This document shows, piece after piece, positions 5,962-47,609 of a stretch of DNA of 64,000 nucleotides. The notes below the pieces were generated by a model, which saw only the letters and a program-made list of their open reading frames with translations, ran no database searches and had not been told where the DNA came from. Every line of letters starts with the position of its first letter. Within the stretch, counting starts at the first letter, position 1. The translations under genes and the position numbers were made by a program. The DNA is taken from assembly GCA_016703645.1 (NCBI GenBank), contig JADJBR010000007.1, positions 1,364,001-1,428,000 of the forward strand, given 5' to 3'. This DNA is from Zoogloea sp. GTDB taxonomy: Bacteria; Pseudomonadota; Gammaproteobacteria; Burkholderiales; Rhodocyclaceae.

Positions 5962-6287
5962 TCCGGGTCGAAGCGCTATGGCTGTCGGTGGTGCCCCTCG
6001 ACATGCGTGCCGGCATGGACACGATCCTCGCCCAGGTGGTGCGGGTCTTTGGCGAAGCGCGCCCCCATCACGCCTACCTCTTCGCCAACCGGCGCGGCAC
6101 TCGGATGAAGGTGCTGATCCACGACGGCCTGGGGCTCTGGCTCGCCTGCCGGCGGCTCAACCAGGGGCGCTTCCGTTGGGCCGAAGGGAACGGCTCGATG
6201 ACGCTCACCCAGGCCCAGTTCGACGCACTGGTGCTCGGCCTACCCTGGCAGCAACTGGGCGGCGACGGCGTGATCCGGATGATTTGA
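5958..6287 (+). CDS. tnpB: IS66 accessory protein TnpB (Orf2 family)
   Basis: 109 residues of the IS66 Orf2/TnpB family. The diagnostic stretches are DMRAGMDTILAQV near the start, HHAYLFANRRGTRMKVLIHDG in the middle and WQQLGGDGVIRM at the end. The start is the ATG that overlaps the tnpA stop. TnpB is needed with TnpA and the DDE transposase for efficient IS66 movement; its biochemical role is not firmly known. Confidence 0.93.
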   Translation: MIRVEALWLSVVPLDMRAGMDTILAQVVRVFGEARPHHAYLFANRRGTRMKVLIHDGLGLWLACRRLNQGRFRWAEGNGSMTLTQAQFDALVLGLPWQQLGGDGVIRMI

Positions 6288-6348
6288 AGGTCCACCATCG
6301 GGGGATGTCCCGATAGCAGTGGCGGTGTTCCAACGGCATGATTTGCCC

Positions 6349-7854
6349 ATGTATCTCCCCGCCAATCTCCACGCACTCGACGCCGACGCCCTGCGCCAGC
6401 TACTCATCGCGCAGGACCGGGAGCTCATCTGGCGCCAGACGAAGATCGACCAGCTCACCCACGAGCTGTCGCTCCACAAACGCTGGCGCTTCGGGGTCAA
6501 GACTGAGCGCCTGTCGGCGGAGCAGGCCCAGTTGTTCGAGGAGACAGTGGAGGCGGATCTCGCGGCGACGACCGAGGAGCTGGAGCAACTCTCCGGCAAA
6601 CCGTCTGCGGCCAAGGGAAAGGCCAAGCGTAAGCCGCTGCCACCCGAGCTTCCGCGCACCGAGATCCGCCACGAGCCGGACTCCACCACCTGCGCCTGTG
6701 GCTGCCAGATGAAACGCATCGGCGAGGATGTCGCCGAGAAACTCGACTACACCCCGGGCACCTTCAGCGTCGAGCGCCACATTCGCGGCAAGTGGGTTTG
6801 CCAGGATTGCGAAACCCTGGTGCAGGCCCCGGTGCCGGCTCATGTGATCGACAAGGGTATCCCCACCACCGGCCTGCTGGCTCAGGTGCTGGTGGCCAAG
6901 TATCAGGATCATCTGCCACTCTACCGGCAAGAAGGGATCTTCGGTCGGGCGGGGCTCGCTATTCCCCAGTCCACGCTCGCGCAGTGGGTCGGCCAGATGG
7001 GCGTGCAGCTCCAGCCCCTGGTCGACGCCCTGAAGGACGAGCTCCTCACCTTCCCGGTGCTGCACGCCGACGAGACTCCGGTGGCGATGCTCGACCCGGG
7101 GGCCGGCAAGACGCACCGGGCCTACCTGTGGTCCTACAGCATCGGTGCCCACGATCCGATGCGGGCGGTGATCTACGACTTTGCCGACAGCCGCGCCGGC
7201 AAGCACGCTCAGGACTTCCTCGGCGACTGGCGCGGCACCCTCGTCTGCGACGATTACGCGGGCTACAAGGCCTTGATCGCGCAAGGCGTGACGGAAGCGG
7301 GCTGCATGGCCCACGCCCGACGCAAGTTCTTCGAGCTTCAGGAACACGGGCAGAGCCAGATCGCCGCCGAGGCGCTGGAGCGCATCGCCGCCCTCTACGG
7401 CATTGAGCAAGATGCGCGGGAGCTGAAGGCCGAAGCCCGCCAGGCGCTACGGGAGACCCAGGCAAAGCCGCTTCTGGACGACTTCAAGACCTGGCTGCTG
7501 GCCTGCCGAGGGAAGATCCCCAACGGCTCATCCAGCGCCAAGGCCATCGACTACACCCTCAAGCGTTGGGCGGCGCTGATCCATTACCTGACCGATGGAA
7601 ACGTCCCCATCGACAACAACTGGATCGAGAACCAGATCCGGCCGATCGCCATCGGCCGCAAGAACTGGCTCTTTGCTGGCTCGCTGCGCGCCGGCAAGCG
7701 GGCGGCGGCGATCATGAGTCTGATCCAGTCGGCGCGCCTGAATGGGCATGAGCCCTATGCCTACTTGAAGGACGTCCTTACCCGCCTGCCGACTCAGCCC
7801 CAGAGTCGAATTGGGGAGCTGTTGCCGCATCGGTGGGGGCCGGATTCCGCTTAA
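6349..7854 (+). CDS. tnpC: IS66 DDE transposase TnpC
   Basis: A 501-residue transposase if read from the ATG at 6349; a GTG at 6319 would add ten residues, and neither has a strong ribosome site. In order it has an N-terminal leucine-rich/coiled segment (about 10-80), a zinc-finger-like CACGC...CQDC region (about 110-170), and the DDE domain with FPVLHADETPV, the second acidic residue in CDDYAGY, and the NWIENQIRPIAIGRKNWLFAGS block at the end. These match the IS66 C-terminal architecture. The stop is 33 bases inside the right end. No frameshift is seen, so the enzyme is probably functional. Confidence 0.95.
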   Translation: MYLPANLHALDADALRQLLIAQDRELIWRQTKIDQLTHELSLHKRWRFGVKTERLSAEQAQLFEETVEADLAATTEELEQLSGKPSAAKGKAKRKPLPPELPRTEIRHEPDSTTCACGCQMKRIGEDVAEKLDYTPGTFSVERHIRGKWVCQDCETLVQAPVPAHVIDKGIPTTGLLAQVLVAKYQDHLPLYRQEGIFGRAGLAIPQSTLAQWVGQMGVQLQPLVDALKDELLTFPVLHADETPVAMLDPGAGKTHRAYLWSYSIGAHDPMRAVIYDFADSRAGKHAQDFLGDWRGTLVCDDYAGYKALIAQGVTEAGCMAHARRKFFELQEHGQSQIAAEALERIAALYGIEQDARELKAEARQALRETQAKPLLDDFKTWLLACRGKIPNGSSSAKAIDYTLKRWAALIHYLTDGNVPIDNNWIENQIRPIAIGRKNWLFAGSLRAGKRAAAIMSLIQSARLNGHEPYAYLKDVLTRLPTQPQSRIGELLPHRWGPDSA

Positions 7855-7887
7855 GGCTCGGTCAAGAGGGGATCGCCGGGGGCTTAC

Positions 7888-7895
7888 CGAGGTTG
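7888..7895. repeat. Target-site duplication of IS66, right copy (CGAGGTTG)
   Basis: Second copy of the octamer found at 5502-5509, directly adjoining the right inverted repeat. It also forms part of the coding sequence of the interrupted nuclease gene on the minus strand. Confidence 0.95.
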
Positions 7896-8248
7896 TGGCC
7901 CCAAGGCAATTGTCCAACAGCCTGTTGGACAATTTTCTCATCGGGCCAGGCCGCCGCGAACGCCCGCATGTACATCAGGTTGGCACGGGAAAAGCCTTTC
8001 ATTTCCGGGAAGGCCGAGCGCAGGTCCTGCGACAGCCGCTCGATGACTTTCGCGCCCCAGCCCTGCGCGGCCTGCCGTGCCAGAATATCCTGGCCAATCT
8101 GCCAGTAGAGCCGCACCAGTTCCCGGTTGACCGCCAGCGCGGCGCGTTGCTGAGCACTGTGGATGCGGGTTTTCAGGTCGGCCAGCCAGTCGGCGTAGCC
8201 GGAGGGCGGTTCGGTCAGTTTGACAGGGGTCGCATCTTCGGCGCTCAT
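7888..8248 (-). pseudogene. YhcG/DUF1016 PDDEXK nuclease, 5' part (split by IS66)
   Basis: The N-terminal 120 codons of the nuclease whose remainder lies at 4780-5509. The sequence (ELVRLYWQIGQDI, KVIERLSQDLRSAFPEMKGFS, NLMYMRAFAAAWP, VGQLPWGHN) is the conserved DUF1016 N-terminal domain. After N-L the reading frame runs into the IS66 end and stops a few codons later. The ATG at 8248 overlaps the stop of the upstream HEPN gene in ATGA, so the two were translationally coupled. The truncated protein would lack the nuclease core. Confidence 0.88.
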
Positions 8249-9591
8249 GCTTTCTTCCCCCATGGCACTTTTTCTGATTCGGTCACGCACTTTGCCGTCA
8301 ACCGGCTGGTATAGGTGTCGTCGTAGCCGCACAAGGCCAGCACAGACAACTCCAGGTACCACAGGCTCAACCTCCATGCATCCACGTAGCAATCGTGCAC
8401 TTTCTTCTTGCTAACGGGATGAACCAGAGAATTTCGGATATCTGTGATGGCGTGCGGCGAATCCACCCACCTGGACTCTTTTCTGAAGGTGTCATTCACC
8501 TGACGGATGTCCGGTGTGGCATCCGTGATCTCGTTCGAAATACCACAGATGGAGAAAAGCAATCGCAGCCGGTCGGAAGCACGCAGGTCATCGAAACCCT
8601 TGCCAGAGATCATCTGGCGATCCACCACAAGATAGTGGTACGCCAATCGCTCCAAGGCGGATTGCGCCAGGATGATGGCCGCGTCGATGCCCGGCGAGCC
8701 GCCACTCGTGTTGGCCTGCACATACCAGTAGATGGCCGAGTGCAGACAGTCCTTCCATTCCTCCGACTGCTGCCACCGCTTCGCGAACAACGGAAACAGG
8801 AGTTCAGCCTGACTTGCCTTGAACGGGGTGAACCACGAATAAGGCGGCTTGCCGACATACGGGGAAGCAAAGGTCTTCCAAGTCGTCGCGCCTGCAGCAT
8901 CGAGTCCCACCCCACATACAGGCGCACACTTCCCACCCTTGATGAACGAGAGGAAGTTGTTAAGGAGATGGCATTGCTCGCTGGCATCTTCCCCTGAGAA
9001 CGGCTTGCCATCCTTGCGCTCCAGCTTCACCACATGCGTCAGGAAACACCCCCCTTCGGCTTTGATTCGATTCCAAGCTTCACGCGTAGCACCGTCCGGT
9101 AGTTCCTGAAGGGAAATTCTCCATTCTTCGGATTCCAGCACAAGCAACGCACACCCAGCAGGGGCCGCGGTGGCCTGATGCTGACCACCTCGGAAATCTG
9201 GGAAGTTAAAGAGGTGAAGGATTGCCGCGACTGAGATCTTGGATTCCATGTCGCACAACGCTACTGGCTCGGATTGAGGAACCCAATCAAAGTCAAAGGT
9301 CTCGAAATTTGCTTTCCATCTTCCACAGAATCCTTCTATCTCTTGGCCATTGAATGAAAGCGAAAGATTGTCTGGGGTCTCAAAGAGAAATGGAAGCTCC
9401 AACTCTGCTGTGCCTTTGACACTTGCCTGAAAGATCAGATGAGGACCGGGAAGAAATCTCAGCATCAGGCTTGCCGCTTCAGAAGCCCTGTCATTGCCCA
9501 AGTTCACGTCCGCTGTCCCTTGGAGCAGACTGACGGGTTCCGGCGCAGAAGAGAAGTCGTACACTGGCTGCAAAGGCTCAGGTCGGCTCAT
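8245..9591 (-). CDS. Putative HEPN-domain defence protein
   Basis: An intact 448-residue frame with a strong GGAGG site before its ATG. I do not recognise the N-terminal region (about 1-280), which looks soluble and beta-rich. The C-terminal part is helical, with SALERLAYHYLVVDRQ, then DIRNSLVHP near residue 400. RNSLVH fits the R-x4-H catalytic signature of HEPN ribonucleases, seen in proteins such as ApeA and many toxin or abortive-infection factors. Its start overlaps the end of the methyltransferase remnant (ATGA) and its stop overlaps the start of the YhcG nuclease, so it was the middle gene of a tightly coupled operon. It is the only member of that operon without visible damage. Function beyond a probable RNase/defence role is unknown. 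Confidence 0.6.
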   Translation of the reverse strand: MSRPEPLQPVYDFSSAPEPVSLLQGTADVNLGNDRASEAASLMLRFLPGPHLIFQASVKGTAELELPFLFETPDNLSLSFNGQEIEGFCGRWKANFETFDFDWVPQSEPVALCDMESKISVAAILHLFNFPDFRGGQHQATAAPAGCALLVLESEEWRISLQELPDGATREAWNRIKAEGGCFLTHVVKLERKDGKPFSGEDASEQCHLLNNFLSFIKGGKCAPVCGVGLDAAGATTWKTFASPYVGKPPYSWFTPFKASQAELLFPLFAKRWQQSEEWKDCLHSAIYWYVQANTSGGSPGIDAAIILAQSALERLAYHYLVVDRQMISGKGFDDLRASDRLRLLFSICGISNEITDATPDIRQVNDTFRKESRWVDSPHAITDIRNSLVHPVSKKKVHDCYVDAWRLSLWYLELSVLALCGYDDTYTSRLTAKCVTESEKVPWGKKA

Positions 9592-9920
9592 GAATTCCTC
9601 CCTGAAGAACTCTTCTTTGCCACACCTTTCTTCACTCCTCCCGTCATCTCGGTGTAGAGATCAAACAGTTTCTCCAACCGCTCTGTGTCGTTTTTGAAGG
9701 GCCGACCAATGTAGATGCGCTCCAGCACTTCGTCGTTGCGATCATGAGCGGCGCGCAGGGCAGCGTGCATGTTCTCGGGGGCGTAAAAATCTGCGATGGT
9801 CACGGGAAAGTGATGCTCTCGCGTCAGCAGGATGTCCTCCGCACAAGGTCAACCTTGTTCTTGTCCGTGAGCGTGGGTACGGGAAAGGTGTTCCAGCCGA
9901 GGGTATTGGAATAGCGAATA
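9588..9920 (-). pseudogene. C-terminal remnant of an MmeI-like DNA methyltransferase
   Basis: Only the extreme C-terminus of a large class I SAM-dependent DNA methyltransferase survives. One frame reads SIRYSNTLGWNTFPVPTLT and continues to DKNKVDL; the next frame continues CAEDILLTREHHFP, TIADFYAPENMHAALRAAHD, then the end with GRPFKNDTERLEKLFDLYTEMT. The shift between the two frames is near 9843-9850. This pattern matches the C-terminal tail of MmeI/BREX-like methylases, from remembered family motifs. The catalytic NPPY region is absent. A GTG at 9803 could start a 71-residue fragment, but it is unlikely to be functional. It overlaps the HEPN gene by four bases. Confidence 0.7.
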
Positions 9921-9995
9921 GACGGTTTTCTTTCCCGCCTTCAGATAGACCGCCACTTCATCCAGTGTGAGAATTTCATCGTCAGTCTGATTCAT
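9918..9995 (-). pseudogene. N-terminal stub of an excisionase-like HTH protein
   Basis: From the ATG at 9995 the minus strand reads MNQTDDEILTLDEVAVYL then KAGKKTVY, the first 26 residues of a MerR/excisionase-type helix-turn-helix protein of the sort that precedes many restriction and defence operons. The frame then runs directly into out-of-phase methyltransferase tail sequence and ends after about 48 codons. A deletion has therefore joined the start of the HTH gene to the end of the methyltransferase gene, removing everything between. No separate promoter was identified. Confidence 0.6.
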
Positions 9996-10070
9996 ATCCG
10001 GAAACTCACTTGGTGTCGCATGGCGAAGTCTTCCAAAGTTTGGCCAAGCTTACCATCCACTCAACCCGAA

Positions 10071-11087
10071 TTAGCTTAGCCCCGCCATCTGGTTCTCCTG
10101 CTCCAGCATTTCCCGCACCGTGTAGCTGGACGGACGCTCGGGGTAGCGGCATTCGCCCGCCTTCACCCCCTCCCCATCACTGCCATTGAGCAGCGGGCAC
10201 TGGCTGAACAGCTCGGCCACCCAGTCGGCAAAGGCCCGCACCTTGGGTGACAGGTGACGGTTCTGGGGATAGAGCACCGACATGGGCAAGGGGGGCGACT
10301 TCCAGGCCGGCAGGATCTCCTTCAGCTCCCCCGTATCCAGGTAGGGCAAGGCCATGAAACGTGGCGGCTGGATCAGCCCGAAGCCCTGCAAGCCGCAGGC
10401 GTTGTACGCATCGGCATCGTTCACCGCCACCCGGCCGTTCATGCGCACGGGCACGCTGACGCCATCCACCACAAAATCCCAGTCGAAGTTGCGCCCCGTC
10501 ACGCTGGAAAAGTAATGCACCGCATGGTGGTGCTGCAGATCCTCCAGCGTCCGGGGCTCGCCATACCGGGCCAGGTAGGCCGGCGCCCCGCAGGTGACGA
10601 AGCTCAGGCTGCCGATGCGCCGCGCCACCAGGGTCGAATCCGCCAGCTCACCGGCCCGGATCACGCAATCCACCGCCTCCTGCACCAGGTCCACCGGCCG
10701 GTCACCCATGCCGATCACCAGCTCCACGTCCGGATAGCGCTCATGGAACTGGCACAGGCGGGGGATCAGGATGTGCCGGCCGATGGGCCCGACCACGTCC
10801 ACCCGCAGCCGGCCCTGGGGTCGGCGGGCCGCATCCTGGAAAGCAGCTTCCGTCTCCTCCAGCTCTTTAATGATGCGCACGCAGCGCTCGTAGTAGGCCG
10901 CCCCATCCGCGGTCAGGCTGACGCTTCGCGTGGTGCGATTGAGCAGGCGCACCTTGAGCAGGTTCTCCAGCCCCTGAATGGTGGTCGTCACCGTCGCCCG
11001 GGGCAAGGCCAGATTGTCCGCCGCCCGGGAGAAGCTGCTGGCCTCCGCCACCCCCATGAACACTTTCATGGCCTGAAACCTGTCCAT
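10071..11087 (-). CDS. LysR-family regulator divergent from RND efflux operon
   Basis: A 338-residue LysR-type regulator. The winged HTH occupies about residues 1-60 (MDRFQAMKVFMGVAEASSFS, with DNLALPRATVTTTIQGLE as the recognition region), followed by the substrate-binding domain. The AARRPQGRLRVDVVGPIG hinge is typical of the subgroup beginning MDRFQAM. It is divergent from an RND efflux operon across about 230 bases (11088-11317), the arrangement of MexT/BpeT-like activators, so control of the pump is the likely role. The AT-rich part of that gap near 11130-11180 is the probable operator and promoter zone; no exact LysR box could be fixed. Confidence 0.88.
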   Translation of the reverse strand: MDRFQAMKVFMGVAEASSFSRAADNLALPRATVTTTIQGLENLLKVRLLNRTTRSVSLTADGAAYYERCVRIIKELEETEAAFQDAARRPQGRLRVDVVGPIGRHILIPRLCQFHERYPDVELVIGMGDRPVDLVQEAVDCVIRAGELADSTLVARRIGSLSFVTCGAPAYLARYGEPRTLEDLQHHHAVHYFSSVTGRNFDWDFVVDGVSVPVRMNGRVAVNDADAYNACGLQGFGLIQPPRFMALPYLDTGELKEILPAWKSPPLPMSVLYPQNRHLSPKVRAFADWVAELFSQCPLLNGSDGEGVKAGECRYPERPSSYTVREMLEQENQMAGLS

Positions 11088-31939: not shown

Positions 31940-33361
31940 TCAGGCGTGGGCGCCGGCAGGTGCCAGCACCGGAGCTTCATAGGCCTTCTGACCGGCAATC
32001 GTCTTGATCATGTTGTAGAACATGATCAGCATGCCCGTCAGGAACAGCACACCACCCAGGACACGAATGGCCCAGAACGGGTAGCTGGCCTTCACGGATT
32101 CAACGAAGGAGTAGGTCAGGGTGCCGTCCGGGTTGGTGGCACGCCACATCAGGCCCTGCATCACACCAGAGATCCACATGGAAGCGATGTACAGCACGAT
32201 GCCGATGGTCGCGATCCAGAAGTGGGTGGTGATCAGCTTGGTCGAATACATCTCGGTCTTGCCGTACATGCGCGGGATCAGGTAGTACATGGCGCCGATG
32301 GACACCATGGCGACCCAGCCCAGAGCACCGGAGTGCACATGGCCGACGGTCCAGTCGGTGTAGTGCGACAGCGCATTGACCGTCTTGATGGACATCATCG
32401 GACCTTCGAAGGTCGACATGCCATAGAAGGACAGGGAAGTAATCAGGAACTTCAGGATCGGGTCGGTGCGCAGCTTATGCCAGGCGCCGGACAGGGTCAT
32501 GATGCCGTTGATCATGCCGCCCCAGGAGGGAGCCAGCAGAATCAGGGAGAAGACCATGCCGATGGACTGGGTCCAGTCGGGAAGCGCGGTGTAGTGCAGG
32601 TGGTGCGGACCCGCCCACATGTAAGTGAAGATCAGCGCCCAGAAGTGCACCACCGACAGACGGTAGGAGTACACCGGACGGCCAGCCTGCTTCGGCACAA
32701 AGTAGTACATCATGCCCAGGAAGCCGGCAGTCAGGAAGAAGCCCACTGCGTTGTGGCCATACCACCACTGGATCATGGCGTCCTGGACACCGGCATAGGC
32801 GGAGTAGGACTTGCCCAGGGAAACCGGGATCTCGGCGCTATTCACCAGGTGCAGCAAGGCAACCGTAATGATGAAGGCACCGTAGAACCAGTTGGCCACA
32901 TAGATGTGGGTGGTTTTGCGGGTACCGACAGTGCCGAAGAAAACGATTGCGTAGGAAACCCACACAAGCGTGATCAGGATATCGATCGGCCATTCGAGCT
33001 CGGCGTATTCCTTGCCGGAGGTCCAGCCCAGAGGCAGGGTTACTGCAGCAAGAACGATGATCAGCTGCCAGCCCCAGAAGGTAAAGGCAGCAAGGCCCGG
33101 GGCGAACAAGCGGGTGTGACAGGTACGCTGCACACAGTAGTACGACGTTGCAAAGAGAGCACAGCCACCAAAAGCAAAGATAACCGCATTGGTGTGGAGC
33201 GGGCGGAGCCGTCCGAAGTGCAGCCATTCGGCAACGTTCAATTCGGGCCACACGAGCTGTGCTGCGACGATAACGCCGACCAGCATGCCCACGATGCCCC
33301 ATACCACCGTCATGATGGCGAACTGCCGCACGACTTTATAGTTGTAAGTCTGCGATTGCAT
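31940..33361 (-). CDS. ccoN: CcoN, catalytic subunit I of cbb3 oxidase
   Basis: A 473-residue haem-copper oxidase core with about twelve membrane spans. Haem and copper ligands are visible: [11 protein letters not shown] near the N-terminus (low-spin haem His), WWYGHNAV with the Cu-B His, AGPHHLHYT with the His-His pair, and [11 protein letters not shown] for the haem ligands. It reduces oxygen to water with high affinity and pumps protons. The ATG at 33361 is chosen because GAGG lies eight bases upstream; the GTG at 33370 has none. It is the first gene of ccoNOQP and is preceded by an FNR/ANR-type box. Confidence 0.96.
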
Positions 33362-33434
33362 GTGAGTCACCTCAATAAAGAAAAACTAAACCCCCCTGAC
33401 TGCAGACGGCGGACCGTCGGCAGGCTTCCGCGGA

Positions 33435-34096: not shown

Positions 34097-35110
34097 CGAC
34101 CGGAAATGGCACTTCGGAAGCGTCGGGCACGCCGAGTCACCGACCGGCACAATGGAGCCACCTTGTGACCGGCACATAGGCGCCCGCGCCGGATCGGCGT
34201 AATGGAGCCAGTCTCACTCTGACGGCCCCCTCGACCTTGAGCGGTCCATCGCTACCCTGCCGGGTTTGGCAGGAGAAAACCGGTGGCCCGCAGGAGTATC
34301 GAGATGCACGAGTACCGCCAGGCCCTGCTGCGTTTGCGTCAGGGCGATTCGGAGCGCGAGATTGCGCGTTCCGGTTTGATGGGACGGGCCAAGGCGGCCC
34401 GTTTCCGGGAGTTGGCCTGCGAGAAGGGCTGGCTTGAGCTCACTTGGCCCCTGCCGGCAGACGCTGAGATCGCGGCCACACTGGCCCCGCCGCGTGTGCC
34501 GCTGACGGCCCAGTCAACGCTTGCCGCGTATCGCCAGCTAGTCACCCAGTGGCTCGGCCAGGGCGTCTCCGGCGTGGCCATCCATTCAGCCCTCGTCCGC
34601 GAGCATGGTTTCACGGGCCGCTACTCCAGCGTCCGGCGCCGGCCCCGAGCTCATCGATCCGGCCACCGGCCAGCTTCGCCGCACCTGGGCCTTCGTGATG
34701 ACGCTCGCCTTCTCACGGCACCAGTACGTGGAGTTCTTGTGGGACCAGAGCGTGCGCACCTGGCTCGGCTGCCATCAGCGCGCCTTCGAGTGGTTCGGCG
34801 CGGTGCCGGCGCGGCTCATCATCGACAACGCCAAGTGCGCCATCGCCAAGGCCTGCGCCCGCGACCCCGAGGTGCAGCGGGCCTACGCCGAGTGTCCAGA
34901 GGGCTAAGGCTTTCGCATCGACGCGTGCCCGCCGCGGGATCCGCAGAAGAAGAGCATCGTCGAGGCCAGGGTGAAGTACGTGAAAGGCAATTTCCTGCCC
35001 ACCCGGCAGTTTCGCGACATGGCGGACCTCAACGCCCAGGTGCGCGACTGGGTGCCGCAGGTGGCGGGACAGCGAATCCACGGCACGACCCGCCTGCGCA
35101 CTCCCCATAT
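34097..35110 (+). mobile_element. Degenerate IS21-family element (5' end and broken istA only)
   Basis: The left end carries the multiple short repeats typical of IS21 termini: CGACCGGCACAATGGAGCCA at 34141-34160, TGACCGGCACATAGG near 34167 and GGATCGGCGTAATGGAGCCA at 34191-34210, with a related CGACCGG near 34098. A damaged istA follows, but no istB or right end is found. IstA-type sequence fades around 35100, where another gene fragment begins. The exact borders are uncertain, and the element must be immobile. Confidence 0.7.
34304..35100 (+). pseudogene. istA: istA transposase, disrupted by deletion and nonsense codon
   Basis: The N-terminus (MHEYRQALLRLRQGDSEREI, with a GGAGTA site upstream; a GTG at 34283 is an alternative) is typical of IS21 IstA and is intact to about 34640 (GFTGRYSSVRR). 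The frame then jumps to another phase that resumes at GAGPELIDPATGQL, so the segment with the first catalytic Asp is missing. The DDE core continues with WAFVMTLAFSRHQYVEF, FGAVPARLIIDNAKCAIAK, a TAA in place of an expected Tyr codon (34905-34907), then DPQKKSIVEARVKYVKGNFL. The C-terminus is replaced by unrelated sequence. It cannot produce an active transposase. Confidence 0.82.
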
Positions 35111-35475
35111 GTGCCTCCAGGAAGGCAAGCCCCGCTGGCAGGGCCTGCCCGACGGACTGGCCCGGCGCCTGCACATCTATTATGTAAACGGTGGCCAGCT
35201 AAACATCGATGGTTTCTACGCCCCCCTCTCCGCCCATGTGGCCGGCAAGGCAGCCTCGGGCATCGCAGACCCCATCATGTTCCCCACGAGTCACATTTAT
35301 CACCCGGACCATCCCGGCCTTGTCTTCGACAGCCCGACGACCTAGCTCCGCTGGAAAGGGGCCGCCCCGGTCATCGCCATCGCCCTCCACCAGCGATACC
35401 TCGCCGCCGAGCAGACCGCCTTCATCGACGACCTGATACGCCGCATCGAAAAGAACGGCGCCATCGTGTATGTGC
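35110..35475 (+). pseudogene. Fragment resembling a CobN/HmuS-type chelatase
   Basis: In the same frame that leaves istA, the sequence reads LARRLHIYYVNGGQLNIDGF, then HVAGKAASGIADPIMFPTS, YHPDHPGLVFDSPTT, a TAG stop at 35343-35345, then LRWKGAAPVIAIALHQRYLA and FIDDLIRRIEKNGAIVY. The pattern 'YYVNGG ... YHPD..GLVFD ... IAIAxHQxYL ... FIDDLIxRIExxGA' is what I associate with the N-terminal half of CobN-like chelatases. A full protein has over 1200 residues, so only about a tenth remains. The name is moderately uncertain. It differs from the intact CobN-like gene at 42.4 kb and so would have been a second paralogue. A ChaN-like gene follows. Confidence 0.5.
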
Positions 35476-35615: not shown

Positions 35616-36461
35616 ATGAAATCCTTGCTCACCCTCCTCCTGATCAGCTTCGTCAGCGTCAGTCACGCTGAAGATCGCATCATCGAAGTTGCCAGCGGGC
35701 GCGAGATCAGTCGCGCCCAGCTACTGGCCCAGGCGCGCCAGAGTGACTTCCTCCTCCTCGGCGAGATCCACGACAACCCCCACCATCATTTCCGCCGCGC
35801 CGAGCTGATCACCGCGCTTGCGCCCAAGGCCATCAACGCGGAACAACTCGAAGAGGGCAGGCGCACCGACTGGGCCAAGGCCTCCGGCGAGCCCCTGAAG
35901 AGTCAGCTCACCACGGCCGGCTTTGACGCAGCCGGCTGGCAGTGGCCTGTGCACGAGCCGCTGTTCGCGGGTCTCGCCAAGGCACGGATCGATGTGGTGG
36001 GTGCCAACATCTCCCGTGATCTGGCCCGTCGTATTGTTCGCGAAGGCAACTCCGCCCTACCCCCCGGGCTGGCAGCAACCCTCACCGCCAATCCCCTGAG
36101 CCCGAGCGCGGAGGCCGCCCTCGACGCCGACCTGCTGGACAACCACTGCGGTCAGCTTCCCGCCACGCGCTTGCCCGGCATGCGTCTGGCCCAGCGGGCC
36201 CGGGATGCCGCCATGGCGGTGGGCCTCACGACCCTGCCTGAGCGGCCAGCCATCCTGGTGGCCGGCAATGGACACGTTCGCGGTGACTACGGCGTCCCGG
36301 CCCTGTTGGCCAGACTGCGCCCCGGCGCACGCATCATCAACATCGGCTTCGAAGAAGAGGGCAAGGCAACCGATGCCGGCACCACCTACACCCACATATG
36401 GACAACGCCCGCCGTCCACCGGGATGACCCATGCAAGGGATTCGGCCAAGCGCGCCCCTGA
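35616..36461 (+). CDS. ChaN-family (haem/iron-binding) exported protein
   Basis: A 281-residue exported protein. The signal peptide (about 1-18, ending SHA) has no lipobox cysteine, unlike the lipoprotein ChaN of Campylobacter. The domain opens with LLLGEIHDNPHHH, the ChaN/DUF399 motif in which the His and Glu residues take part in haem or metal binding, and later contains AILVAGNGHVRGDYGVPALL, the conserved second histidine region. ChaN proteins bind haem as a dimer and are linked to iron acquisition. The start at ATG 35616 is chosen for the signal peptide. It lies behind the chelatase fragment, hinting at a former haem-uptake locus. Confidence 0.82.
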   Translation: MKSLLTLLLISFVSVSHAEDRIIEVASGREISRAQLLAQARQSDFLLLGEIHDNPHHHFRRAELITALAPKAINAEQLEEGRRTDWAKASGEPLKSQLTTAGFDAAGWQWPVHEPLFAGLAKARIDVVGANISRDLARRIVREGNSALPPGLAATLTANPLSPSAEAALDADLLDNHCGQLPATRLPGMRLAQRARDAAMAVGLTTLPERPAILVAGNGHVRGDYGVPALLARLRPGARIINIGFEEEGKATDAGTTYTHIWTTPAVHRDDPCKGFGQARP

Positions 36462-41901: not shown

Positions 41902-42076
41902 AGCGATGATCTGGGAGAAGAAAACACTAAAAATCCGCGGATCGGTACGGGCACGACCGGGAAACTGTCACAGCGATGACGTTATTGTAATGAACTATGG
42001 GCGCTTGGGAACCCATCCTCGCCAGCCGCAGCCCCGGAAACTTGCTGTCGGGTGCTGCCCGCAGTTAGACTCCGCA

Positions 42077-42275
42077 GCGTTTCGGGTGCCGACCCCGCGT
42101 CTGCGGGAAAGGTGAAACGGGAAGTCCGGTGACCTCCGCGAGCCATTGCTCGCAGGGCATTCCGGCGCAGTCCCCGCTGCTGTAAGCCTGACGACGCCTC
42201 CACACACGCCACTGGGCCATGGTCCGGGAAGGCCGGAGCGGGTCGCATGAAGGTGAGCCAGAAGACCGGCCCGAC
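42077..42275 (+). ncRNA. Cobalamin (B12) riboswitch
   Basis: The conserved cobalamin aptamer elements appear in order: GGGTGCC near 42083, GTGAAACGGGAA near 42112, CCGGTG, then GGCGCAGTCCCCGCTGCTGT near 42163-42182, GCCACTGGGCC near 42208, GGGAAGGC near 42226 and the B12 box GAGCCAGAAGACCGGCC near 42255-42271. The aptamer ends about 150 bases before the CobN-like start. Cobalamin binding normally lowers expression of the downstream transport or synthesis genes. The expression platform in 42276-42425 was not resolved, but a ribosome-site sequestering mode is plausible. Confidence 0.92.
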
Positions 42276-42425
42276 GACACTTGTTCAGCTGTGCCCCGGG
42301 GTGTGGGACTGGCGAGCGAAAACGTCGGCCCTCCCGCGCACACCCTTTCTGTCGGCGCCCGCCATGCGGCTTCGTATCGTCCCTCCTGCCTCCCCCCGGC
42401 CAGCGCGATGGCACGCGGAGGCACA

Positions 42426-45400
42426 ATGGCAGGACGCAAATCGACTCACCGGATATTCACCCGCGGCGCGCTGCTGCTGATCGCCCTCGTTGCCTGCAGC
42501 GGAGCCCACGCGGCCACCCTGTTCGGCGTCGTCACCGACCGTGCCGCCCCCACGGCCGTCGAAGCCGCCCGGCAGCATCTCGCCCACCATCCCCGCGACC
42601 GCATCCTGCTGCGTACCCCGGCCCAGATCCAGGCCGCCACCGACCGACAGTTGCGCCAGTGGCTCGACGCCGATGCCGTGCTGGCCGTCTCGGCCTTTGG
42701 CGACCCGGCGCGGCGCCTCATCGACGCGATACCCGCCAGCCGTGCCAGCACCGTGCTGGCCATCAGCGGCGAGCAGCGCCTCAACCTGCTGAGCCGTTCT
42801 CGGGCCGGAGCCCTGGCCAGTTTCCCCGCCGAAACCCTGCACCAACTGGCGGGTGAAGCCCCTCCGCAGGCGGCCCTTGAGGCCGCCGCTGCGGCCCCGG
42901 CGGCACAACACTGGCTGGACGCACGCCGCACCTGGCAGGCCGGTGGCAGCGACAACCTGAGCAGCCTGTTCAAGCACCTGCTGGCAGGCACCCCCCTGCC
43001 CCCGCCCCGACCGGAGGCCAGCCTGCGCCTGCGCGTTGGCGCTGTCGAGCGGATCGATGCCGACGCCTGGGACGCCCGCCTGCTGCCTGCCGGCGCAGCC
43101 CTGGCCGTCCTTGACCTGTCCAATATCGAATCCGGCAGTGCTGCCGCGATCTGCGCCGAATCCCGCCGCCAGGGTCTGCCCTGCGCCGAGATTCTGACCC
43201 GCTGGGGTGGCAGCTCCCGGGCGGCCATCGAGGGCCTGCCCAGGCTGTTGGCCCCGGCCCGGCCGGCTGCCCTGGTGGTAATCCAGGATTTCGTCGTCGG
43301 CGCCGCCGAGAACAGGGAAGCCGTCACCGAAGCCTTCACGCAACTCGACATCCCGATCATCAAGGCCATCCGCCTCACCGAGCGTAGCGCCACCCAGTGG
43401 CGCCTCTCGCCGGAGGGCCTGCCGGTGGATTCCGTACAGTACCGGGTGGCCCTGCCGGAGCTCCAGGGCATCGGCCAGCCCATCGTCGTGTCCGCTGTCG
43501 GCGCCAGCCGCATCGACCCCATCACCGGCGTCGCGCTGCGCCGCACCGAACCGATCGCCGCCGAGATCAGCCGCCTGGTGTCGCGCGCGGCCCGCTGGCA
43601 GCAGCTCCAGACCAAGGCCAGGGCCGCCAAGCGCCTGGCCATCATCTACTACAACCACCCACCCGGCCGGCAGAACATCGGCGCCGACAACCTGGACGTG
43701 CCCGCCTCCCTGTTCGGCATCCTGCAACGGCTGAAGGCAGAGGGCTACGACACTGGCGAACTGCCGGCAACGCCTGAGGCCCTGCTTGACCGCATCATGG
43801 CCCACGGGATCAACCTGCCCGAAGACAAGACCGCCCTGCGCGAGCTGGCCCGCGAAGTGGAGGGCGTCAGTGCTACCGACTACCGGCGCTGGTTTGCCGG
43901 GCTGCCCGAGCGCGTCCAGGGCGAAATGGTCTCCGGCCCCCTGGGCCGCCTTCACACCGAAGTGCTGGAAGCCGAGCGTGCCGGCGAACGCAGCCTTGGC
44001 CGCAAGCGCGTGGAATCGGCGATGAAGGAACTCCACCACCTGGCCGAAGGCGCCGACCACCCCCGGCGGGCCGAAGCCATCGCCGGGCTGAAGGCCCTCG
44101 AAGCCAGCTACCTGGCTTGCCTCGCCGATGTCCCCCAAGGCCCCTGCAGCCGCCATTCCGGCCTCACCTGGAAGATCGTCGGCTACGGTGTCGAAGGCCT
44201 CAAGGGCTGGGGCCCGGCACCGGGCAAGGTGATGGTCAGCGACGGCAGGCTGCTGGTGCCCGGGCTCACCTTCGGCAAGATCTTTGTCGGCCCCCAGCCG
44301 CCCAGGGGCTGGGAGGTGGATGAAGAGCTCCTCCACGCCAACACCAGCGTGCCGCCGCCCCACCAGTTCCTCGGCTTCTACCACTGGATCCGCGACGTCT
44401 TCCGCGCCGACGCGGTGGTGCATCTGGGCCGCCATTCGACCTACGAATTCCTGCCCGGCAAGGCCGTCGGCCTGACCGCCGACGACTACCCCAGCCTCAT
44501 CGCCGCGGACCTGCCGGGCATCTACCCCTACATCGTCGACGGCGTAGGGGAAGGCATCCAGGCCAAGCGCCGGGGCCTCGCCGTGATCGTCGATCACCTC
44601 ACGCCGCCCCTGTCGGCCACCCCGCTCTACGACAAGCTGCTGGAATTGCGTCAGGTGGTGGAGAGCTTCGAGGCCGCCGGCAGCGACAGCCTCAAGACCC
44701 AGGCCGCCCGCCGCATGCGCGAACAGGTCGTCGCGCTCAACCTGCGGACCGAACTGGAAGCCTCCATGGCCGATGTGCTGGAGGTGCGCGGCATCGGCTT
44801 CGAAGACGCTGACGACGACCTGCTCGCCCACGAGATCGGCCACTACCTCACCAAACTGCAGGAGAAGTTCATGCCCCACGGCCTGCACATCTTCGGGCAG
44901 GACTGGAGCGCCGAATCATTGAAACTGATGGCCGACTCCATGGGCCAGGTAGCCGGTGGCTACGACGCCGCCATCGCCGACAAGCTTGCGGCCTCGCCGC
45001 GTCTGGAAATGGCCGGCCTGCTCGCCGGCCTGGATGGGCGCTTCGTGGCCCCGGGCAAGGGCAACGACCCGCTGCGCTCCCCGGAGGCTCTGCCGACCGG
45101 GCGCAACTTCCACGCCGTCGATGGCGACCTCCTGCCCACCCGCCTGGGCTACGCCCTCGGCGCCCGCCTCGCCGAGCAGGCAACCGCCCGCCCACGTAAG
45201 GTGCGCGCGGGCGCAGACAGCGATGCCGTCATCCTGTGGGCCTCCGACGCGGTGCGCGATGAGGGCGCCATGGTCGCCTTCTGCCTGTCCCTGCTCGGTG
45301 CCGAGCCGGTATGGAACGCCCGCGGCATCGTCACCGACGTGCGCCTGCTGGCCGACACTCCCCGACGCGACGTGATCGTCACCACCTCGGGCCTCTTCCG

Positions 45401-46805
45401 CGACCTCTACCCCAACCTGCTCAACCAGATCGACCGGGCCGGCCGCCTGGCCCTCGCCGCCTCCGCCGGACTGATCGCCGAGCGGCACCCCGAGCTTGGC
45501 ACGGCCCTCGACGCCGCCCTGGCGCCCCTCGGTGGCAACGTGGCCCGCGGCCACCAGCCCTTCGCCGACAACATCGCCGCCGCCCGCTGGATGGCCCGCA
45601 CCAGGCAGCTCGGCCAGACCGGTCTGGGCATCGCCGACGCCGGGCGCGCCGCGGCCCTGCGCATCTTCGGGGATGCCCCCGGCGCCTACAGTGCCGGCGT
45701 CAATCGCCTGGCCGAACGTTCGGGCGCCTGGCAAGCACGCAACGAGCTGGGCCGGGTCTACCTCAACCGCATGGGCCACGCCTATGGCCTCGACGCCAGC
45801 GGCGATGCCACCCACCAGGCCTTCGAGACAGCTCTTTCCGGCGTGGCCCGCAGCTACCACGGCCGCGCCAGCAACCTGTACGGTCTGCTCGACAACAACG
45901 ACGCCTTCGATTACCTGGGCGGTATGTCGGTGGGTATCGAGACCCTCACCGGGCGCCGGCCGGAAGGCCTGATCCTGCAGCACGCCGACCCGGCTCACCC
46001 GGCCGTCGAGCCCCTCGCCACGGCCCTGCTGTCCGAGCTGCGCGGCCGCTACCTCAACCCGGAATGGCTGAAGCCCCTGATGAAGCACGGCTATGCCGGC
46101 GCCCGCACCATGGGCCAGGAATTCCTCGAGAACCTGTGGGGCTGGCAGGTCACCCGACCTGACCTGATCCAGCAATGGGCCTGGGACGAGGTCAAGGAAA
46201 CCTGGTTCGAGGACAAGCACAAGCTCGGCCTGCCGCGCTTTCTTGCCCAGGGCCACAACGCCCACGTCAAGGCGCAGATGCTGGCCATCTTCATGGTCGC
46301 CGCCGAGAAGGGCTTCTGGCAGGCCGACGCGGCCACCCTGAAGCAGATGGGCGGCGAACTCGCCCGCCTGGTGGCGAAGAACGGTCTGCCGGGCAGCGGC
46401 CATACCGCCCCCCACCATCCGATGTGGAACTGGCTCCAGCCACGCATCGACGCCGTCGACGCCGATGCCCTCGGCGTGGCCCTGGCCCGGGCCAGGGGTG
46501 AAGGGCTGGCGCCTGCCCCCGTCGCGCCCATCACCGCAATGGCCGCCACACCCCGGCAACAGGACGCCCGCCATGAGGCCGCGACACCCCGTCGTGAACA
46601 GACCGCTGTGGCGCCAACCGCGCCCAACCCGGCCGCCGCTGAACCCCAGGCACCGGCCGAGCGCCATTACGAACTCCATACCCGACCGGCGCCGCTCGCC
46701 GCCCGGCACACCCCGCCGATGGCCCTGCTCACCCTGGCCCCGCTGCTCTTCCTCATCGGCCTCGCCTGGAGCCGCCGCCGCCCTTCAACCTCCACCCACG
46801 CCTGA
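42426..46805 (+). CDS. Exported, membrane-anchored CobN-like chelatase (HmuS-type)
   Basis: A 1459-residue protein of the CobN/ChlH superfamily. The ATG at 42426 with GGAGG upstream gives a classical signal peptide (hydrophobic residues 13-24, end AHA), and a C-terminal span (about 1433-1450, LLTLAPLLFLIGLAWSRRR) follows a Pro/Ala linker. The bulk is therefore predicted to face the periplasm. Canonical cobaltochelatase CobN is cytosolic and works with CobST; neither is here. CobN motifs include IIYYNHPPGRQNIGADNLDV, GRLLVPGLTFGKIFVGPQPP, FRADAVVHLGRHSTYEFLPG and ADLPGIYPYIVDGVGEGIQA. It is followed by ExbB-like and DUF2149 genes, a set resembling HmuS-HmuU-HmuV of Bacteroidetes haem operons. 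The B12 riboswitch points to corrinoids or cobalt as the substrate. Confidence 0.85.
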   Translation: MAGRKSTHRIFTRGALLLIALVACSGAHAATLFGVVTDRAAPTAVEAARQHLAHHPRDRILLRTPAQIQAATDRQLRQWLDADAVLAVSAFGDPARRLIDAIPASRASTVLAISGEQRLNLLSRSRAGALASFPAETLHQLAGEAPPQAALEAAAAAPAAQHWLDARRTWQAGGSDNLSSLFKHLLAGTPLPPPRPEASLRLRVGAVERIDADAWDARLLPAGAALAVLDLSNIESGSAAAICAESRRQGLPCAEILTRWGGSSRAAIEGLPRLLAPARPAALVVIQDFVVGAAENREAVTEAFTQLDIPIIKAIRLTERSATQWRLSPEGLPVDSVQYRVALPELQGIGQPIVVSAVGASRIDPITGVALRRTEPIAAEISRLVSRAARWQQLQTKARAAKRLAIIYYNHPPGRQNIGADNLDVPASLFGILQRLKAEGYDTGELPATPEALLDRIMAHGINLPEDKTALRELAREVEGVSATDYRRWFAGLPERVQGEMVSGPLGRLHTEVLEAERAGERSLGRKRVESAMKELHHLAEGADHPRRAEAIAGLKALEASYLACLADVPQGPCSRHSGLTWKIVGYGVEGLKGWGPAPGKVMVSDGRLLVPGLTFGKIFVGPQPPRGWEVDEELLHANTSVPPPHQFLGFYHWIRDVFRADAVVHLGRHSTYEFLPGKAVGLTADDYPSLIAADLPGIYPYIVDGVGEGIQAKRRGLAVIVDHLTPPLSATPLYDKLLELRQVVESFEAAGSDSLKTQAARRMREQVVALNLRTELEASMADVLEVRGIGFEDADDDLLAHEIGHYLTKLQEKFMPHGLHIFGQDWSAESLKLMADSMGQVAGGYDAAIADKLAASPRLEMAGLLAGLDGRFVAPGKGNDPLRSPEALPTGRNFHAVDGDLLPTRLGYALGARLAEQATARPRKVRAGADSDAVILWASDAVRDEGAMVAFCLSLLGAEPVWNARGIVTDVRLLADTPRRDVIVTTSGLFRDLYPNLLNQIDRAGRLALAASAGLIAERHPELGTALDAALAPLGGNVARGHQPFADNIAAARWMARTRQLGQTGLGIADAGRAAALRIFGDAPGAYSAGVNRLAERSGAWQARNELGRVYLNRMGHAYGLDASGDATHQAFETALSGVARSYHGRASNLYGLLDNNDAFDYLGGMSVGIETLTGRRPEGLILQHADPAHPAVEPLATALLSELRGRYLNPEWLKPLMKHGYAGARTMGQEFLENLWGWQVTRPDLIQQWAWDEVKETWFEDKHKLGLPRFLAQGHNAHVKAQMLAIFMVAAEKGFWQADAATLKQMGGELARLVAKNGLPGSGHTAPHHPMWNWLQPRIDAVDADALGVALARARGEGLAPAPVAPITAMAATPRQQDARHEAATPRREQTAVAPTAPNPAAAEPQAPAERHYELHTRPAPLAARHTPPMALLTLAPLLFLIGLAWSRRRPSTSTHA

Positions 46806-46812
46806 CCTCACC

Positions 46813-47256
46813 ATGAACGAATTGCTCACCCTTGCCTGGCTCCACCAGGCCGTCATCTGGTTGCTCGCCCCGGCCCTGCTGGCCCTCATCGCCGCCTGCG
46901 CCATCGCCCTGGCCGAGGCCGGCCTGGCCCTCGGCGAACGTCTGTGGGGCCTGCGCCGCCTTGCCGCCAGCGGCGACCTGCTGCTGATCCAGCGCGTGGC
47001 CCGGCACCGCCTGGAGCGGGCCGACCTGCTGGCCCGCATTCCACCCATGCTGGGCCTGATGGCCACCATCATCCCCCTCGGACCGGGTCTCGCCGCCCTG
47101 GGCCAGGGCGACCCCTCGGAGCTGGCCAGCGCCGTCACCACCGCCTTCGACGTCACCGTGCTGGGCCTGGTGGCCGGCATTGGCGGGCTGGTGGTGGGCA
47201 AGCTGCGCCGGCGCTGGTACGAAGAGCTGCTCGAGAACCTGGAGGAAGAGGCATGA
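46813..47256 (+). CDS. MotA/TolQ/ExbB-like proton channel protein
   Basis: A 147-residue inner-membrane protein with an N-terminal span (about 12-38), a cytoplasmic loop, and the paired spans of the ExbB/TolQ channel domain: IPPMLGLMATIIPLGPGLAA near 77-96 and SAVTTAFDVTVLGLVAGIGG near 111-130. It is shorter than ExbB (about 240 residues). With an ExbD-like partner it would convert the proton gradient into mechanical work. It starts seven bases after the CobN-like stop and overlaps the DUF2149 gene in ATGA, so the three proteins are probably made together. Confidence 0.85.
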   Translation: MNELLTLAWLHQAVIWLLAPALLALIAACAIALAEAGLALGERLWGLRRLAASGDLLLIQRVARHRLERADLLARIPPMLGLMATIIPLGPGLAALGQGDPSELASAVTTAFDVTVLGLVAGIGGLVVGKLRRRWYEELLENLEEEA

Positions 47257-47609
47257 GCGCCACCCGACCGCCCCGCAAGCGCCTGCGCCTCTACTCGCGC
47301 CTCGATGCCCGCTTCGACGACCGGGACGATGACCCCCGTGCCAGCCTGGTCAACCTGGTGGATGTGATGCTGGTCTTCGCCTGCGGCCTGCTGGCCGCCC
47401 TGGCGGCCGGTACGCAGGGCGCCCTGCCCCCGCCCAAACCGGTGGACAAGGGCCGCGCCATCGAGCGCCCGGCCGACGGGCAGGGCCAGGCCGGTGCCGG
47501 CATGGATCGGGTCGGTGAAGTCTTCCGCGACCCGAAGACCGGGCAGCTAATCCTCATTGAACCCGTCGGAGCAGTACCTCCGCTCCCCACCAGCAAGCGG
47601 CCCAAGTGA
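47253..47609 (+). CDS. DUF2149 protein, ExbD/TolR-like partner
   Basis: A 118-residue protein with one membrane span (about 28-49). The span begins SLVNLVDVMLVFACGLLAAL, which matches the ExbD/TolR pattern with the essential intramembrane aspartate (LVDVMLVF). A periplasmic tail follows, with the DUF2149 ending DPKTGQLILIEPVGA. DUF2149 proteins occur next to CobN-like and ExbB-like genes in methanogens and in Bacteroidetes hmu operons. The ExbD analogy is read from the span motif; the functional coupling is inference. Confidence 0.82.
   Translation: MSATRPPRKRLRLYSRLDARFDDRDDDPRASLVNLVDVMLVFACGLLAALAAGTQGALPPPKPVDKGRAIERPADGQGQAGAGMDRVGEVFRDPKTGQLILIEPVGAVPPLPTSKRPK

Follow-up and report, generated by a model that had tools for sequence, protein, structure and literature searches.

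A 64,000-nucleotide stretch of a Zoogloea sp. genome (contig JADJBR010000007.1, positions 1,364,001 to 1,428,000; hereafter the window) contains a cobalamin (B12) riboswitch followed by three tightly coupled genes, which encode a CobN-like protein, a short ExbB-like membrane protein and a DUF2149 protein. It is moderately likely that these three genes form an inner-membrane-anchored, periplasmic, motor-linked machine that processes corrinoids as part of the B12-salvage regulon. The CobN-like machine probably aids the salvage of B12-like molecules outside the cytoplasm. Within this explanation, the role in corrinoid salvage is the firmer part, and the chemical step is a guess. As far as sequences can speak, it is supported by the riboswitch, the coupling of the genes, a chelatase-type body with an invariant site, and partners of the ExbB and DUF2149 types, as well as by recurrent neighbors from corrinoid uptake and late salvage and by carriers without a detectable corrin-ring pathway gene.

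Many bacteria rely on B12 made by others, and the periplasmic handling of scavenged corrinoids is little known. If the proposed reading is true, a conserved energized component is added to B12 salvage, a set of proteins labeled as cobaltochelatases in databases gains a different role, and the driving of chelatase-type proteins by ExbB/DUF2149 pairs becomes testable. The finding also cautions against inferring B12 synthesis from a CobN annotation on its own.

Organization of the locus

The features of the locus are as follows.

42067..42288, + strand: cobalamin (B12) riboswitch aptamer, RF00174 (cmscan 95.8 bits against a gathering threshold of 31.5, E 1.3e-22)
42417..42421, + strand: ribosome-binding site GGAGG, 4 nucleotides (nt) 5' of the ATG (sequence reading)
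42426 (ATG)..46805, + strand: CobN-like exported protein of 1459 amino acids (aa) (PF02514, 796.5 bits)
42426..42512, + strand: predicted signal peptide, residues 1–29, with AHA/ATLF cleavage (inferred from sequence and hydropathy)
46716..46772, + strand: predicted C-terminal membrane helix, approximately residues 1431–1449 (hydropathy maximum 2.21)
46813..47256, + strand: short ExbB/TolQ/MotA-like membrane protein, 147 aa (PF01618, 30.9 bits; cut-off 22.9)
47253..47609, + strand: DUF2149 protein, 118 aa, with a single membrane helix carrying Asp37 (NLVDVMLVF) (PF09919, 35.8 bits; cut-off 27.1)

A preliminary description, made by reading the window alone, had named a riboswitch ahead of three coupled genes, and this observation is confirmed. 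The riboswitch it proposed is supported by the covariance model with the score listed above, and the same family reaches E 2.5e-24 in a search of the organism's own genome. A second covariance model, R1, gives 107.9 bits for 42067–42288, the window sequence being among the 19 used to build it. The start of the feature as first noted, 42077, falls within the riboswitch. The CobN-like and ExbB-like genes are separated by 7 nt, and the ExbB-like and DUF2149 genes overlap by 4 nt.

Conservation of the gene set and its riboswitch

The comparison covered 81 loci, namely the window and the best 80 of 171 relatives, chosen by protein similarity alone. The set retains two loci that look frameshifted or cut (L041, L027) and two that end inside the CobN-like gene (L009, L042). 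The riboswitch counts combine curated Rfam scans with matches to R1, a model whose 19 source sequences come from within this set of loci. A B12 riboswitch lies in cis upstream of the CobN-like gene in 77 of the 81 loci, directly before it in 52 and at the head of a co-directional gene run in 25. Because the pairing of riboswitch and gene is common to so many loci, it is not due to chance. The weakest of the 77 riboswitches scores 34.4 bits with R1 (L047, a locus without an Rfam scan). Among the remaining four loci, L058 and L070 have a divergent riboswitch only, and L054 and L062 have none upstream; the L062 stretch starts about 0.9 kb before the CobN-like gene. Rfam scans of 28 of the 80 fetched loci, mostly those missed by a simple pattern, found RF00174 in 27, all except L054, with the match divergent in L058 and downstream in L062.

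No cobalamin riboswitch was detected at 18 control loci of the sister type (0/18), a set that does not contain L140 and L141 of the same sister branch, both riboswitch-bearing, nor L130 with its R1 match. No riboswitch was detected in L105 or, with R1, in L101, L102, L104, L116 and L137; L132, L135 and L139 lay outside the riboswitch scans. The full triad of CobN-like, ExbB-like and DUF2149 genes is present in 75 of the 81 loci as called. As for the six incomplete cases, ExbB-like sequence was recovered with tblastn in L013, L025 and L052, L027 breaks off in the ExbB-like gene, and the stretches of L009 and L042 stop before the CobN-like gene is complete. The association of the CobN-like protein with an ExbB/DUF2149 pair and a riboswitch, as first described, is borne out by these tallies.

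Export, anchoring and active site of the CobN-like protein

The N-terminal export signal of the window protein is MAGRKSTHRIFTRGALLLIALVACSGAHA, with cleavage predicted before ATLF. Kyte–Doolittle maxima over 17 residues are 2.01 at the N-terminus and 2.21 at the C-terminus, where the helix is followed by SRRR; the C-terminal values of ten CobN/BchH rows are merely 0.09–1.24. The signal peptide predicted in the preliminary description survives start mapping, and both it and the proposed C-terminal anchor recur in relatives: among 78 near-full-length B12-type proteins, hydropathy is at least 1.6 at the N-terminus in 65 and at the C-terminus in 75. Several of the 13 low N-terminal values look like start calls set too late. 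Export and anchor calls rest on hydropathy and sequence reading rather than on a signal-peptide predictor. A lipobox-like motif, LVAC, occupies residues 21–24 of the window protein and is absent from most relatives' starts. Taken together, the signal, the C-terminal helix and the co-operonic ExbB-like and DUF2149 genes point to a periplasmic location.

The chelatase active-site columns of the window protein hold His666, Arg669 and His670, which are invariant in 81/81 rows, and Asp1159 and Asp1162, which are invariant in the 79/79 filled rows. Two motifs characterize the B12-linked proteins: H-x-G-R-H-S-x-Y-E-F-L-P, in which x is Thr in all rows shown except one, and D-N-N-D-A-F-D-Y-x-G-G. The corresponding motifs are HVGKHGNLEW and DSDDYYQFQGG in a CobN, and HFGTHGSLEF and LSLDHVYEFMGG in HmuS, the haem de-chelatase of Bacteroidota. 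The HmuS motif HFG(T/A)HG is not kept in the window protein, which has HLGRHS, although the site His itself is retained in 81/81. Likewise, the HmuS motif LSLDHxxEFMGG, as given in the accessible text of PMC12583661, is replaced by LLDNNDAFDYLGG, with Asp at the His-1209 column. The column of the HmuS haem ligand His-254 (same source), located via the Bacteroides row L101 rather than the B. thetaiotaomicron sequence itself, corresponds to Asp288 of the window protein and holds Asp in 76/81. Consequently, membership in HmuS is rejected on the site motifs and the haem ligand column. As to the methionine-rich insertion of HmuS, the Met count in any 120 residues peaks at 6 in the window protein and at 5 to 10 in the three HmuS rows compared. 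A separate observation concerns Cys243 and Cys253, which are invariant in the B12 clade, whereas no such pair occurs in the 14 rows of sister, CobN and BchH proteins compared; the two residues may form a disulfide or belong to a substrate site.

ExbB-like and DUF2149 partners

The ExbB/TolQ-like protein and the ExbD-type aspartate read from the sequence in the preliminary description hold up: both Pfam families score above their cut-offs, and Asp37 of the DUF2149 protein is invariant in 24/24 rows and nearly invariant (at least 90%) in 29 rows. The AlphaFold2 model of the ExbB-like protein consists of three long helices with a mean predicted local distance difference test score (pLDDT) of 93.3. 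In Foldseek searches, its nearest solved folds are ExbB/TolQ with a probability of about 1, but the best E is 0.026 and none reaches 0.001. The DUF2149 model has a confident helix at residues 28–53, with the remainder low (mean pLDDT 67.1, predicted template-modeling score 0.29), and is too uncertain for a fold search. From these ExbB/ExbD-like features, we infer that the pair would act as a proton motor. A Pfam search for DUF2149 matched 17/398 genomes but failed to pick up the copy in the window itself; no prevalence is claimed, because this search is insensitive to the B12 clade.

Phylogenetic placement

The careful tree contains 36 proteins, with 16 of 52 rows omitted; a first tree had omitted ten B12-type rows. 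The B12-linked CobN-like proteins form a single clade with bootstrap 100 and an SH-like approximate likelihood-ratio test (SH-aLRT) value of 100. Together with HmuS and the proteins linked to haem and nickel, it makes up a larger group (100/99) that excludes CobN (100/100) and BchH. HmuS and the other non-B12 branches are united with lower support (90/87). The approximately unbiased (AU) test rejects a tree that forces the B12 clade and CobN together with p 0.014; this rejection is moderate, and the groups compared had been defined from previous trees. In NCBIfam, the window protein falls under the cut-off of all nine CobN/BchH models matched, for example TIGR02257 with 518.5 against 822.05. 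The earlier suggestion that the protein is not a normal cytosolic cobaltochelatase agrees with this placement, and the likeness to HmuS noted at that time is upheld by shared anatomy, shared partner genes and the common grouping.

Among the matches listed for 79 Pseudomonas genomes, a B12-type protein occurs in 2, neither with CbiC/CobH, and the other 73 matching genomes have CobN-like frames, many of about 1250 aa. No zinc-type (PA1923) sequence was identified among these listed matches, in which CobN-like frames were not classified singly.

Gene context and B12 pathway content

Neighborhoods were counted over the fetched stretches of the 81 loci, up to 8 kb per side and on either strand. The families found are BtuB-type receptor (28), cobO (26), cbiA (23), ATP-binding cassette (ABC) ATPase (18), bluB (17), cobU (15) and FecCD permease (14). 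Each family name rests on a check of a single member, that of the receptor on six; all six have the B12-receptor model TIGR01779 as their best family, one of them above its cut-off. A recognized B12 gene is present in 36 of the 81 loci, a count that a recheck left unchanged, because three loci with nothing but ABC-type genes dropped out and three with cbi genes overlooked at first came in. In L012, the corrinoid-remodeling enzyme CbiZ adjoins the CobN-like gene. The preliminary description had reported no adjacent TonB receptor, which is correct for the window's strain and does not extend to many relatives.

The window's own genome (4.99 Mb), to which Zoogloea metagenome-assembled genomes (MAGs) come closest in the genome scan at about 90% protein identity, has a second riboswitch heading btuB-btuC-btuD-cobO, with CobS and DBI_PRT genes alongside; genes for CbiB and a PF01497 (BtuF-like) protein lie elsewhere. 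The BtuB of this genome has TIGR01779 as its best family, with 483.5 bits against an equivalog cut-off of 599.7. Searches of the genome returned neither CbiD nor CbiC/CobH. They also gave no match to CobT (PF06213), which is present in 5/50 genomes; a CobS/ChlI-type ATPase was not searched for, so that of the proposed absence of CobST the CobT part stands. Whole-genome searches covered 45 genomes drawn from the 80 loci, L079 not among them, and 36 of these 45 carriers of the B12-type protein lack a CbiC/CobH match. This absence is not proof, because some of the 36 genomes are MAGs. Nevertheless, the lack of CbiC/CobH in the own genome and in these 36 argues against a role there in ring synthesis or, plausibly, in its cobalt supply. 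In most of these carriers, the triad apparently has no part in ring synthesis, and a cobalt supply would have no obvious purpose. The earlier choice between a corrinoid and a cobalt substrate is narrowed: a corrinoid is favored, and cobalt supply for B12 synthesis is disfavored.

Proposed mechanism and alternative explanations

In the proposed mechanism, low B12 would lead the riboswitch to turn the genes on. A TonB-dependent receptor would bring a corrinoid in, and the corrinoid would enter the cleft of the CobN-like protein, where His670 and Asp1159 would flank the metal. The ExbB/DUF2149 pair would stand in for the cytosolic AAA+ motor of CobN and ChlH, and the proton gradient, acting via the C-terminal anchor, would let it work the cleft. 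The metal center would thereby be processed, either by axial-ligand stripping or reduction, or by cobalt insertion or exchange in defective corrinoids. The product would then pass to BtuFCD and afterward to cytosolic CobO and, where present, CbiA.

Several observations weigh against this proposal. Besides the riboswitch, 45 of the 81 stretches, the window included, hold no recognized B12 gene, some of them being short. The adjacent receptor families TBDT8 and TBDT13 (three members tested) look siderophore-like or unassigned rather than like BtuB. The own genome already encodes BtuF-like and BtuCD-like proteins, so the machine is unneeded for plain import. In the Zoogloea relatives L003, L004 and L008, the triad stands just before a riboswitch-cbiM-cbiX-cbiC-cbiD cluster, and cobalt supply would fit in these genomes. 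Finally, the CobN-like protein of the B12 clade on a Marinobacter sp. M3C plasmid (L106) has neither adjacent motor genes nor a C-terminal helix; no riboswitch was detected over 16 kb, Tyr occupies the His666 column, and the motor may consequently be dispensable. This gene (5983–10185) lies within a B12 salvage cluster, as if anchor and motor had been lost together.

Among the alternatives, an energized corrinoid receiver is a real, if lesser, possibility. In this case, the chelatase fold would bind the corrinoid delivered by the receptor and pass it on without metal chemistry. The head and neck domains of the fold distantly resemble periplasmic binding proteins, according to the accessible text of PMC12583661, several operons have btuCD-type genes without a btuF-type gene beside the CobN-like gene, and control by a riboswitch is shared with BtuB. 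However, the invariant metal-site residues go beyond what binding alone would seem to require, and the BtuF-like and BtuCD-like proteins of the own genome count against this explanation as well; a plain substitute for BtuF is rejected on the same ground. Periplasmic cobalt insertion is unlikely while still deserving consideration: scavenged metal-free corrins would be loaded with cobalt, replacing CobNST, before the action of cytosolic CbiA, CobO and CobQ. It is consistent with the homology to CobN, with an Asp, shared with CobN, where HmuS has His-1209, with cbiA and cobO among the commonest neighbors, and with the late-pathway cluster of Spirosoma (L103), which contains a cytosolic-type CobN. 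On the other hand, metal-free corrins are considered rare in nature, a periplasmic source of cobalt is unexplained, and Asp at the His-1209 column occurs in haem-linked branches too.

A cobalt demetallase, which in the manner of HmuS would free the cobalt of periplasmic corrinoids or cobalt porphyrins to feed cobalt import, is rather improbable. Corrin-bound cobalt is generally held to be kinetically inert, and the missing CbiC/CobH of the own genome and of 36/45 others leaves no evident large use for freed cobalt, even though the triad precedes cbiM-cbiX in the three Zoogloea relatives mentioned above and L130, from another branch, combines an R1 riboswitch match with DUF2149, CobN-like and CbiK genes. 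This explanation also draws on the sister-branch protein HmuS, described as removing iron from haem (PMC12583661). A haem demetallase of the HmuS kind that is only incidentally under B12 control is very improbable. The architecture and motor genes match those of hmu operons, but the HmuS motifs and His-254 are not kept (HLGRHS, LLDNNDAFDYLGG and Asp288, the last in 76/81), the clade is separate, and the gene contexts differ. An ordinary cytosolic-type CobN whose start was misjudged and whose ATPases are encoded elsewhere is scarcely credible. It would account for the PF02514 match and for records that annotate relatives as CobN; nevertheless, this identity is rejected by the AU test against the CobN clade, the unmet NCBIfam CobN cut-offs, the genome without CobT, and the conservation of the exported start and C-terminal helix. 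The corrinoid-processing machine remains the preferred reading.

Related machines in other branches and other genes in the genome

L140 and L141, from genomes of the window's order, encode an other-branch CobN-like protein with its own ExbB and DUF2149 proteins. Their neighbors are cbiA-, cobU-, btuF-, ABC- and cobO-like genes, most named by sequence likeness; the names verified are CbiA and CobO in L140, and BtuB and the BtuF-like protein in L141. A riboswitch heads both loci (75.2 bits with Rfam in L141; 56.9 bits with R1 in L147, the stretch upstream of L140). Joining the two proteins to the B12 clade is rejected (AU p 0.0005). Since they are phylogenetically separate and stand in riboswitch-led B12 operons, such machines seem to have become tied to corrinoid salvage on at least two independent occasions. 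L130, of a third branch, contains a receptor, DUF2149, CobN-like, PF01497-CbiZ fusion and CbiK genes, with an R1 match of 44.3 bits.

On a Runella slithyformis plasmid (L102, 1110–11827), receptor, ExbB-like, DUF2149 and CobN-like genes lie within a hyp (nickel hydrogenase maturation) cluster, as annotated. This set is possibly a nickel branch of the family; its DUF2149 protein has Glu at the Asp37 column, and the supposed nickel transporter at the locus falls under the Pfam cut-off. A Spirosoma oryzicola plasmid (L103, 2374–11515) carries a late-pathway cluster, cbiA-cobN-putative cobaltochelatase-cobQ, with the cytosolic-type CobN mentioned above.

The only other PF02514 match in the own genome is a short relic. 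It belongs to the remains of a haem-type cassette at 35089–35463 of the window, with a ChaN-like gene at 35619–36461 and a ccoN-like gene at 31940–33370. In the syntenic place, Zoogloea MAG.494 has haem-receptor, CobN-like, ExbB and DUF2149 genes, then ChaN; the window relic keeps a short N-terminal CobN-like piece, with one TAG within the match, and ChaN. A second ExbB-like and DUF2149 pair of the own genome (L129, 8022–8776; contig C9, about 195,500–196,300) is an orphan that lies beside a Sel1-repeat protein, without a CobN-like gene.

Comparison with known systems

It is tentatively suggested that the exported CobN-like proteins represent a class I chelatase in which a proton-driven ExbB/ExbD-like motor has replaced the ATP-driven AAA+ motor, so that tetrapyrrole metal chemistry could take place in the periplasm. 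Its branches would be tuned to haem iron, nickel (the Runella hyp cluster), zinc (from the literature) and corrinoids (here and in a second independent lineage). On this broader reading, the B12 branch would be, to our knowledge, the first enzyme to act on the corrinoid metal outside the cytoplasm.

The published systems are compared below from the accessible parts of the sources. CobN of CobNST and ChlH/BchH of magnesium chelatase share the PF02514 body and the conserved site His with the window protein, whereas they are cytosolic and AAA+ driven (PMC7689651) and form separate clades. The operon PA1922–PA1925 of P. aeruginosa likewise unites a TonB-dependent receptor, a CobN-like protein and an ExbD-like protein under metal control; in contrast, it is regulated by Zur and zinc (PMC4542158, PMC8531726), and its sequences are outside the tree. 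BtuS, a third CobN-related type proposed in 2003 (as cited in PMC6460266), is also CobN-like and was predicted to act in metalloporphyrin salvage, but the studied members serve the use of haem iron, and protoporphyrin release persisted in a B. fragilis btuS1 btuS2 double mutant (PMC6460266).

The closest characterized system is HmuS, which is described as acting with HmuU (ExbB-like) and HmuV (DUF2149) in Bacteroidota hmu operons (PMC12583661, PMC13227078) and as taking iron out of haem without a need for ATP (PMC12583661). HmuS-HmuU-HmuV (loci L101 and L104) shares with the window system an exported, anchored CobN-like body, ExbB-like and DUF2149 genes in the operon, and a neighboring branch of the tree. 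Unlike it, the window system has a B12 riboswitch, the motifs HLGRHS and DNNDAFDYLGG, and Asp288 in place of His-254. No HmuY or HmuT gene was seen beside the window genes, and the neighbors in relatives are those of corrinoid salvage.

No published account of the proteobacterial B12-linked clade was found in the literature searched, which left out most subscription papers. The nearest is PMC10100974, which describes Hmu-like operons of Bacteroides led by a cobalamin riboswitch (B. fragilis NCTC 9343) and suggests a part in cobalamin metabolism. These operons have in common with the present one an HmuS-like gene set behind a B12 riboswitch, and their CobN-like sequence is outside the tree. They belong to Bacteroidota and, in the accessible text, are mentioned in passing, whereas the present set comprises 81 loci from Pseudomonadota and Nitrospirota, placed by a tree. 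The kind of system is already in print as HmuS/BtuS and as riboswitch-led hmu-like operons of Bacteroides, and the B12-linked proteobacterial form adds a variant.

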